Shown in pieces: positions 2,480-7,802 of a DNA stretch of 64,000 nucleotides. The notes beneath the pieces were generated by a model, which saw nothing but the letters and a program-made list of their open reading frames with translations, had not been told where the DNA came from and did no database searches. The stretch is from assembly GCA_963575745.1 (NCBI GenBank), contig CAUYUJ010008091.1:164530-228529 (forward strand), given 5' to 3'. The position numbers and the translations under genes were made by a program. Numbering within the stretch: the first letter of the stretch is position 1; each line of letters begins with the position of its first letter. The DNA is from Prorocentrum cordatum. Taxonomy: Eukaryota; Sar; Dinophyceae; Prorocentrales; Prorocentraceae.

Positions 2480-2531
2480 CGCACGTACTCAAAGGGGGTC
2501 CTCAGAGGTCACCAGCGAGCCCTAACGAGCC

Positions 2532-5500
2532 CTACGGAGCCTCTCGAGTTCTTGTGAGCTCGACGAGTGCACAAGCAGCACGCCGCAATTCGTACAAGTG
2601 GCCTTCCCAAACTTCCTCAGAGGGGTTGGGCGGCGGGCACAAAACTCTGGCAGAGTTATAAATATGATATGCAGTAACCACAGCCTCGATAGTTGATGGG
2701 CTGGGTGAACCACCTAGGCCAAGACGACAGACTGCACAACTCGGGATCTCGGCCTGGGGTGGATAGGCGATCGACCATAGAACATTACAGTCTAAGTAGT
2801 GCGAAAAGGTGTCAGGTGCAGCTACCAGAGGCGGTTCCCTGCACCGAAAGCGACACTCGCCGATGCCCGTCTGAACATGTAGGCGGCCAGACGTGAGCCA
2901 TGCTCCTGAGATTGTCTTGATAACCGCACTCTGCCACGCTGGAGCCAGGCGCGAGATCGCCTCTCTCAGGCCGGCCCACCGCGCTTTACATGACACCACG
3001 TGGGAACGGCAGGCCCTGGGACACCCGACGCGACCTTCAACCTCGAGCCCCCAGGCCTTCAAACGTCGCTGAATCAGGAGGTGGAGGAGATCAGGAAAGA
3101 GCGAGGCGTGCAACGAGGAGTACAATGCTTTCTGCGTATGCACCCGCACGCCCCGCTCGGCAGCGTCGCTGCATGCACGGGCGAGTGCCATCCTCGCAGC
3201 GGCAGCGGGGCGTGCGAGAGCACTATCATTCACAAAATCCTCCTGTGCCGACGCAAGGAACTGTACGATGGGCGTGGTCTGCCAAAACGGCGGCGACAAA
3301 GTGCCGCTGCCAATTATCCAAAGACTCCCGTGGTCCTGGACCTGTGCCTGCAGCCATGCGTGCAGCTCCTTCCAGTTACTCACCGTGGAGAGGGCCGATC
3401 GCATGGCCGCCGCACAGCCCGTGGCCAGCAATGAGCGGATGCGAAGGCCAGGCGCCCACGCACCTAAGGCCAGGAAGTCGTGCCTGCCGAGCGCCTGCGG
3501 GGGCATGCGCCACAGCTTGGCGGCCGCCCACCCTTCTTTGGCCAGCACCAACTTCGGGGTGGCCGCCAGCTGTTGAAGATATCCTAAAACAGGCAGAGCA
3601 CGACGATTGTACAGTCGAGCAGCTATCGACGGGGGCGCACCACTCATCGCAATGTCCACGACTCGGGAGAACCACTTTGCCGCCGCCTTCCTCCAGATGT
3701 CCCGTTGTGTCGCACCAGGGCCGACCACGAAGCCCAGGTACTCCGCCTGGTCGCGCACCTGCATGCCACTCCACTCGCACAGGGCCTCGGCCAGCCATCC
3801 TTTGAGGTCTGCGACGAGCTCGTCAGAGAACTTGCCCTCCAGCGGGATCAGCACGCATTTGTGGAGCTTCAGGTGCAGGCTCGCGAGCGCCCTCGCAGCC
3901 GCGAAGGCCCGCCACATCCCACGAAGCAGGTGACGCGATCGCAGCACCACCCCAACGTCGTCAGCACAAACCCCGATGGCGGAGAGGCGACTGGCATCTC
4001 GATCCGTGTACTGCATCATGTGATGTATGAACGGGTTCATTGCGATGGCCCAGAGACTCCCAGACGACGGACATCCCTGCGCGAGCCCGCACGAGACGCA
4101 CACGAAACGCACCATCGCGCCCGCGAGCTCCACGCACGCCGTGGGAAGCCAGTAGAGCGCCTCCAGCACGAACCGAACTCCTCCGACGAACCCCGAGCGG
4201 ACCAGCATGAGCAGCATCCACTCCGTCATCAGAGACGGGAACGCGTCGCCAAAGTCGAACAAGGCCATGATGGGCTTGCCCGACTCCTGCATCCCCGCGG
4301 CCCTTGCAGTGGCGTCCAGCAGGCAGATATTGTCCAGGAAGTTGCGGCCCTGCAGGAAGCCCCGCTGCGGTGCAGGCGACGCCTTCTCAATGGGGCCCTT
4401 GATCCGTGCATTCACCGCTGATGCCACCAGCTTGCAGTCCGCATTCTTGAGCGCAATCGCCCGCGTGGTGCACGGCGTGCGGAATGCGCCCTCCACCAGA
4501 TCCTCCTCATACGAGCCCTTCGGGAGAAAGGCGAGCAGGTGGTCGTTCCAGTCGATGGGCGGCGGCCTGCCAGACGCAATCTCTAGGACCACGTCCTCCA
4601 GCGCAGCAAGCGCTGCGGGGCAAGCACGCCAGGCAGCATACGGCAAACCGTCAGGCCCAGGCGCCGACTCCTTGGCGCGAGCAGCAGCGCGGAGCAACGC
4701 CTGTCGATCAGGGGGGAGCAGGTCGGCCACCTCCAGCAGTGGCGCGTGCTCCTTGATGTACCTGTCCGCGAGGACCTGCCAGTTGGGAACCTTCGGCTTG
4801 ACCTGGAAGATCGGGGCCCAGTGGTCGCGGAGGGCCTCGATCACGTCGACCTGGTCCGTCAGCACCTTGTGTCCCTCGTCGTCAGGCACCTTGATGCCCT
4901 GCAACTTGAGCGTGCGATTGAAAGGTGACCACAAGGCCTCCCGCCTACGCATCTTGCGCCGGGCAGCATTCATCATCTTGAACGATCTGGGGTCGAACGC
5001 CTTCGCCTCCTGCTCCGAAAGGGCAGCCGCTCGAGCCTCGAAGTGCAAGCGCTGAGCCTCAGCGAAGTCCCTAGCAAACGACGGCGGGTGGATCAGTGAG
5101 ACCTGGATGCTCGAGACCGTGATGTACATCGGCGCGATCTCACACGTCAATAAAAGCCTCTGTCCCAACTCGACATCATCCCGCCAGACTGCTCGAGATA
5201 TCGAGCGAAAGACCATCAGCTTCGTCTCGCCAACTGGATTGCGGCAGCGCAGGTCCCTCACGTACTTCGCAGCCTCCTTCATCAGATCCTTGTGCCGCCG
5301 CCTTGTCGCATACACCCCGAGCTTAGACCAGTCGACGAGCGCGCGCAGCCTCTCGTACTGCGCAGAAAACTCAGGATCCTTGAAGAAGTGGGAGGGGATC
5401 CTCTGCCCCTCGGCAGGCGCCACCTGACGGGCCGATACCGAGATCACGACGGGAACATGGTCGCTTATGCCTCTCTCGTGCAGGTCTTCAGGCTTATCCT

Positions 5501-7566: not shown

Positions 7567-7765
7567 ACGAGAGACAGGGACGTGCCGAGTGGGAAACGTG
7601 ATGGCCTCTGCTGGGGCGGACCAGCAAGGCACGTGAGTGTGGGCGCCACTCAGAGCAGTAGCCCAGAACGCAACACAGTTGAGTTGGTTGAGAGATTTGG
7701 CGCAAGGGGAGATCCCTCGCGCTTGATCGCCCCGAGAGACTCGCGGTCGTCGGGAATCTCATCGC

Positions 7766-7802
7766 CTTGAGCCAAAATGGCTTGAGCCAAAATGGCTACG
7801 GA
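7766..7802 (-). other. Dinoflagellate spliced leader plus truncated relict leader
   Basis: On the minus strand 7802-7781 reads TCCGTAGCCATTTTGGCTCA then AG, the full 22-nt DinoSL with T at the variable first base. Immediately after it, 7780-7766 is the last 15 nt of the leader again (CCATTTTGGCTCAAG). The relict begins just after the TAG inside the leader, as expected if that AG was used as a new trans-splice acceptor after an earlier genomic re-insertion. This marks a cDNA that cycled through mRNA at least twice. Confidence 0.97.

Follow-up and report, generated by a model that had tools for sequence, protein, structure and literature searches.

A long interspersed nuclear element (LINE) must preserve its 5' end in each round of copying, and two solutions to this have been described, an internal promoter and read-through combined with a ribozyme. 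What the solution may be when this end is a spliced leader (SL) of the host is the question raised by a 64,000-nucleotide stretch of Prorocentrum cordatum DNA (hereafter the window; C8091:164530-228529, contig CAUYUJ010008091.1), in which positions 2480-7802 of the minus strand are occupied by an intact, L1-like retrotransposon with two open reading frames (ORFs) and without long terminal repeats (non-LTR), both edges of which abut (CA)n. Comparison of its genomic copies makes it very probable that this is an autonomous and recently active L1-like LINE, that its RNA template carries the host SL, and that its endonuclease targets (CA)n-type microsatellites. Host trans-splicing would here supply the 5' end, and the inserted SL contains AGs for the next round.

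Termini, copies and target site

A first-pass annotation, made from the letters of the window, had placed the edges at 2480 and 7802, with exactly the 22-nt dinoflagellate SL (DinoSL) as the 5' edge and (CA)n as the next base outward, in an insertion between GT tracts of ~520 and ~370 bp with both ORFs intact. All of this was borne out: both edges are correct, an exact SL lies at 7781-7802 (an exact 21-mer at 7781-7801 on the minus strand, for which 0 were expected from 100 shuffles, plus a leading T at 7802), base 7803 is already part of the repeat, the arrays measured ~521 and ~372 bp, and the reading frames of ORF1 (417 aa) and of ORF2, with its endonuclease (EN) and reverse transcriptase (RT) domains, are both open in the window copy. 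The 3' edge reads ...GAGTACGTGCG(A) at 2480/2479, where the last A (2479) may be element or target.

Searching the genome (4,128,499,153 bases, 4.13 Gb, in 21,875 contigs) with ORF2 gave at least 41 matches, 15 of which span the whole query at 92-100% identity, free of stops and equal in length. Fourteen of the 15 align at the DNA level in one piece over 5,246-5,268 bases (89-100% identity), and the exception, L011, is 5'-truncated at element position 1095. Pairwise ratios of nonsynonymous to synonymous divergence (dN/dS) between subfamilies were 0.08-0.11 at a dS of 0.21-0.42, so that several lineages have been kept under purifying selection; close pairs gave 0.13-0.33 (1.3 for L009/L010, with almost no changes), and since their dS goes down to ~0.001-0.014, some copies are recent. 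L004 and C16700 are one site, with 274/274 flanking bases identical, and L014 and L030 share another, the other 3' flanks being distinct. Insertion sites were doubled across the contig pairs C16700/C4592 and C9274/C6651, which points to duplicated or allelic stretches in the assembly.

The 5' sides were read in 14 stretches (L002-L015), the window copy, L017 and C16700, amounting to 16 distinct copies; L016 (assembly gap), L018, L023 and L028 are outside this count. A perfect 22-nt SL stands directly against a CA-type repeat in 15 of the 16, and the sixteenth is the truncated L011. The annotation had described an autonomous non-LTR element with a host-SL 5' end, and had proposed the other copies as a check; their 5' ends place the same edge in every close copy read except the truncated one. 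A genome search with the 487-base 5' region returned 40 places, 16 of them long matches, which are the same 15 SL-starting sites plus one duplicated site. The 24 short matches share only ~70-90 bases of the SL end and leader (CCCGACGACCGCGAGTC...GCGCGAGGG; 88-91% identity), and the leader stretch (window 7706-7765 (-)) also recurs in families whose ORF2 is only 47% identical. A ribozyme like that of hepatitis delta virus (HDV) was ruled out as the producer of the 5' end, as an Rfam scan of 7500-7802 gave only one chance-level match to a different family. A conserved RNA structure in the 5' leader was also rejected, with 0 of 21 predicted pairs changed on both sides and single sequences folding about as well as shuffles.

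The 3' end is fixed as well. Among 22 loci with an alignment reaching the element end, of which 21 are close-family ends representing 20 sites, 21 end in GAGTACGTGCGA followed by a CA-type repeat and have no poly(A); in L012 and L015 the end lies at the edge of a short repeat only. The 22nd locus, L029, is a member of a family related at 69-70%. Folding of the 3' end of the CA family showed no structure beyond that of shuffles (z -0.09).

A target-site duplication of 16 bp fits 13 of 14 copies: it is the sole exact length in six (L002, L006, L012-L015), appears among several exact lengths in five (L001, L004, L005, L008, L009), and carries one mismatch in two (L007, L010), with a length of 19 or 11 in L003. 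These duplications make the SL the physical end of the inserted complementary DNA (cDNA), in agreement with the earlier proposal that a mature trans-spliced mRNA had been copied to its first base; an SL-ORF1 RNA would be expected in living cells. At the 3' junction, all 13 sites besides the window show the nick motif, with A at -5, -1 and +4 and C at +1. The far cut is unrestricted, the duplication ending in CTTT in L012 and in GTGTG in L015. The repeat type (CACA, CATA or CACG) is particular to the site and is found on both sides of the insertion, and because every other copy has a different CA-type repeat, the flanking arrays are target rather than cargo. The truncated copies lead to the same conclusion, since a CA repeat lies on both sides of five of six (the sixth has an assembly gap). 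The suggested targeting of dinucleotide repeats is thereby upheld by flanks that are CA-type microsatellites differing from site to site, and by the 16-bp duplications; the arrays are neither coincidental nor element-borne. A chance meeting of SL and repeat is ruled out by the 5' ends, 3' ends and duplications of the other copies.

Double spliced leaders and the proposed renewal of the 5' end

Three features went beyond the first-pass annotation. Inserted copies lack a poly(A) tail, sister families are seated in (TA)n or in (CTC)n, and some copies carry a double SL. The last, a full SL followed by CCATTTTGGCTCAAG, is present in the window copy, in L005 and in the 47%-identical C16348 copy, and the second SL is absent in 13 of the 15 close copies read. 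In the tree of copies the nearest relatives of both the window copy and L005 carry a single SL, and the simplest reading of this is that their double SLs are separate events. The genome contains 14,218 exact SLs in all (control 0), 1,202 of which (8.5%) are in the double-SL state, and in 4 of 30 sampled loci the double SL occurs in sequences unrelated downstream. According to the accessible part of PMC3229502, which cites Slamovits and Keeling (2008), a second SL is trans-spliced at the AG inside the first, after nucleotide 7; the relict SL would accordingly be the recognised trace of a second round of trans-splicing, in which the AG of CCGTAG within a previously inserted SL was the acceptor. 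A further junction was found in L015 (locus L044), where the SL is joined 43 nt further inward in the leader, directly after ATCAAG.

These observations suggest a cycle in which I infer three things: that transcription starts outside the element, that the SL of the element itself is the splice site, and in what order the nicks are made. The element would be transcribed together with upstream DNA, and an AG close to its 5' end would receive the SL RNA of the host by trans-splicing. Two AGs for this would be available in the inserted SL, the terminal CTCAAG, use of which would restore the 5' end perfectly, and the internal CCGTAG, use of which would leave a double SL; every insertion would therefore bring its own acceptor, and the 5' end would be renewed in each round. 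The ORF1 and ORF2 proteins would package the RNA, and the ORF2 protein would nick the GT strand within a CAYAYA|CAYA-like sequence. With no poly(A) tail involved, reverse transcription would be primed on a 3' end that reads ...GUGCG(A), the cDNA would run through the SL as far as its first base, and a second-strand cut at a distance of 16 bp would yield the 16-bp duplication.

Several points weigh against this picture. A double SL could revert, so two events in the close family are not certain, and the 43 nt of L015 may have been deleted between two TCAAG words, with no new splice site involved. The SL is without change in 15 of 15 copies at a fourfold-site tree length of 0.83, but the leader adjoining it is also strongly conserved, hence the constancy of the SL alone is no proof of renewal. 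The nick motif is partly given by the CA array itself, and exact duplications were not found in four of the five sister-family copies tested (L021, L022, L024, C18099), probably due to changed (TA)n. There was also no sign that the upstream repeat serves as a polypyrimidine splice signal, the double-SL share being alike after pyrimidine tracts (12 of 100 listed) and after purine tracts (10 of 100 listed; hand count).

The main rival is that the SL is now DNA-encoded and that an internal promoter directs transcription from the outermost base of this SL, with trans-splicing only at the origin of the family and rarely since. This has a modest chance of being correct. A retroposed DinoSL acting as promoter is raised for retrogenes, and weighed against an upstream promoter, in the section of PMC6050394 that was available. 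The single SL of 13 of the 15 close copies speaks for this, and the conserved ~60-nt 5' leader could contain one; use of the terminal AG would be invisible, however, and single SLs therefore do not decide between renewal and an internal promoter. The double SLs, found in separate lineages and at 1,202 places including sequences unrelated downstream, require transcripts beginning upstream of the inserted SL, and the SL of L015 sits at a different AG. The double SLs argue against an internal promoter as the sole route.

It is improbable that the 15-nt tandem and the L015 junction arose by ordinary duplication or deletion via short homology, with no splicing involved. TCAAG does stand at both ends of the 43 nt missing from L015, and the 15-nt unit has AG on both flanks, but the same 15-nt duplication lies behind a full SL at 1,202 places, unrelated sequences included, and the reading already known for it is re-trans-splicing at the AG after nucleotide 7 (PMC3229502, as far as accessible). 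Very little credence can be given to an ordinary SL-tagged retrocopy, in which a LINE or host mRNA was copied passively by other machinery and the microsatellite is coincidental: SL-bearing retrocopies are established in dinoflagellates (available portions of PMC6050394 and PMC12014239), but this element encodes its own EN and RT, its numerous copies are equal in length and evolve under purifying selection, and its target is fixed and duplicated over 16 bp. The idea that the element makes the microsatellite, as an RT-copied 3' tail or by expansion seeded at insertion, has a precedent in the short tandem repeats in which some LINEs terminate, and is nevertheless scarcely likely, given that the repeat is on both sides even of 5'-truncated copies, that duplications include non-CA letters (e.g. 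CAAAAGCAAACGTGTG and ...CACTTT), and that each site has its own repeat type, the same on both sides.

Related families, genomic spliced leaders and known systems

The best reading of the element together with its more distant relatives is a group of LINEs whose 5' end comes from host trans-splicing and whose targets have diversified among microsatellites. L021, L022 and L024, whose ORF2 is 60-61% identical, terminate in GTACGAGCGA with (TA)n directly behind it, and this (TA)n family starts at an SL after (TA)n (L055, L078, L079). Two copies at 47% identity, C18099 and C16348, are seated in CATA/TA-type sequence and begin with an SL; one SL base is changed in C18099, and C16348 has an exact duplication of 17 bp. 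L049 and L061, which form one family, start at an SL after (CTC)n and end in ...AAGGTTACGTTCG followed by (CTC)n. In this family a strong terminal stem-loop lies directly before the target repeat (L049, L076:780-832; z -5.06), a possible recognition signal for the RT.

The wider sample consisted of the first 30 SL places listed, from contigs C1-C3, and is not a random draw; it includes L049 and L061. The 40 bases upstream of the SL were of low complexity in 24 of the 30, compared with 9.1% of 3,915 other 40-mers from the same loci (p ~3e-20, if independent), and a relative of ORF1 was found at ten SLs (E 1e-4 to 1e-129), all ten at low-complexity repeats. Among the other 20, Pfam recognised WD40 in L074, which does not lie at a repeat, and weakly a KOW motif in L052, which lies at (CCT)n, L046 and L070 gave matches below the curated cut-offs, and the remaining 16 had no Pfam match at 0.01; the sample therefore does not show host retrogenes sharing the site. 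With ten of 30 SLs preceding a related ORF1 and 24 abutting low-complexity repeats, a genomic SL need not indicate a retrogene. Over the whole genome, 4,007 of the 14,218 SLs (28%) follow 13 pyrimidines and 1,345 (9.5%) follow 13 purines, against 2.5% of window positions in either case. An SL directly after (CAT)n occurs in the source genome (L068) and also at one contig end in a record assigned to an uncultured Dehalococcoidia bacterium (L087), which is probably a stray dinoflagellate piece. The SL was found in one viral and two prokaryote contigs, none of which had a LINE ORF.

A broader proposal, which I put forward tentatively, is that dinoflagellates harbour a large radiation of L1-like LINEs without a promoter-bearing 5' end of their own. 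The SL, captured anew in every cycle, would be a portable 5' end with its own acceptor, and the endonucleases would have radiated over microsatellites (CA, TA, CTC, probably GGA and CAT). If this were true, most full-length SLs in the P. cordatum genome would mark LINE 5' ends and not host retrogenes, and the agent long sought behind mRNA recycling in dinoflagellates would be this same LINE machinery. That agent is described as unknown, with LTR elements favoured, in the available part of PMC6050394, and Symbiodiniaceae LINEs appear as old, inactive remnants in the parts of PMC10235124 and PMC8045281 at hand, the former also proposing LINE-mediated retroposition. An intact and recently active LINE with a probably SL-tagged RNA and a recognisable integration footprint makes the agent of SL-mRNA recycling testable.

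With L1-like LINEs bearing an apurinic/apyrimidinic endonuclease (APE) the element shares two ORFs, an APE-type EN with RT, a long predicted coiled coil in ORF1, 5' truncation and target-site duplications; it differs in its host-SL 5' end, its microsatellite target and an ORF1 that Pfam does not recognise. Mammalian L1 has a 3' poly(A) tail, whereas here 21 of 21 close-family ends are GTGCGA and then target. Waldo and Mino, of the R1 clade, insert in (AC)n and have in common with the present element that they do so in fixed orientation. To my knowledge, no SL 5' end is known for them or for Togen of fish. The latter is described in the accessible part of PMC4640811 as (TG)n-specific and NeSL-related. 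It resembles the element in inserting into (TG)n/(AC)n, but belongs to the restriction-like-endonuclease group, unlike the APE endonuclease found here.

Links between LINEs and SLs have further precedents. SLACS, CRE and NeSL-1 insert into SL genes, whereas here the SL is the element's own end and the target is a microsatellite. Spliced leader exons are among the element targets named in PMC4640811, as far as available. DinoSL retrogenes and relicts (PMC3229502, PMC12014239 and PMC6050394, each in part) likewise have a 5' SL on inserted cDNA and a double SL in which the initial nucleotides of the second are missing; unlike them, the tagged RNA here is the retrotransposon itself, with EN and RT in place of a host gene, and has a fixed target. 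The trypanosomatid L1Tc/ingi elements are also LINEs in trans-splicing hosts and, according to the accessible sections of PMC8190864 and PMC4035085, have the Pr77 internal promoter, an HDV-like ribozyme and an unspliced translatable RNA, in contrast to the SL within the inserted copy and the absence of a detected HDV-like ribozyme here. No description of SL-ended LINEs in microsatellites was found in the open-access literature, subscription journals being mostly outside that search.

Coding capacity and features of the window

In ORF2, Pfam placed an APE-type endonuclease N-terminal to the RT, and the GDFN and SDH motifs are present. In a best-hit ranking, its best solved relatives are LINE-1 ORF2p (E ~1e-7), compared with 0.0019 for R2. 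A single full-length relative of ORF2, P0001 (31% identical), and one weak match were found outside the source genome, with none in viral contigs and phage records; no relatives of ORF1 were found outside the source genome. ORF1 matched no Pfam family at 0.001. Its AlphaFold2 model from a single sequence has a mean pLDDT of 53.5, with good confidence for a long helix/coil at 121-211, low confidence for the remainder and an uncertain RRM-like part, and Foldseek returned no match for the fold at E 0.001 or better. ORF2 starts at CTG in the window copy (PALFGTWNAR) and at ATG in the four sister copies L012-L015 (PAMFGTWNAR), and in the window copy no ATG stands in frame from the ORF1 stop to the endonuclease. 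Its ORF2 may be translated from a CUG or by way of a frameshift. Table 1 collects the features.

Table 1. Features of the element and its flanking arrays in the window.
Feature	Position	Strand	Basis or remark
Full-length non-LTR retrotransposon	2480..7802	-	5' end 7802, 3' end 2480 (or 2479); edges from genomic-copy comparison and target-site duplications
(GT)n/(CA)n target array, 3' side of element	2108..2479		Tandem Repeats Finder; ~372 bp
(GT)n/(CA)n target array, 5' side of element	7803..8323		Tandem Repeats Finder; ~521 bp
22-nt spliced leader TCCGTAGCCATTTTGGCTCAAG, 5' terminus	7781..7802	-	Exact match; identical in 15/15 full-length copies
Relict spliced leader CCATTTTGGCTCAAG	7766..7780	-	Exact 15-nt tandem directly behind full SL; same state in L034, L083
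5' untranslated region	7567..7765	-	First ~60 nt conserved between families
ORF1, 417 aa	6313..7566	-	ATG at 7566, stop 6315-6313; disordered N terminus, long predicted coiled coil, possible RRM-like domain
ORF2, APE-type endonuclease and reverse transcriptase	2532..6242	-	Pfam PF03372 and PF00078; CTG start at 6242-6240, stop 2534-2532
Endonuclease domain (Exo_endo_phos)	5457..6236	-	PF03372, ORF2 residues 5-264
Reverse transcriptase domain (RVT_1), motif CADD	3729..4469	-	PF00078, ORF2 residues 594-840
Short 3' end ...CCCTTTGAGTACGTGCG(A), no poly(A) tail	2480..2531	-	Terminal 12 nt identical in 21/21 close-family 3' ends read

The element is neighboured by frames for RCC1-type repeat proteins at window 8698-10056 (-) and 11543-12406 (-), the former containing six RCC1_2 stretches.

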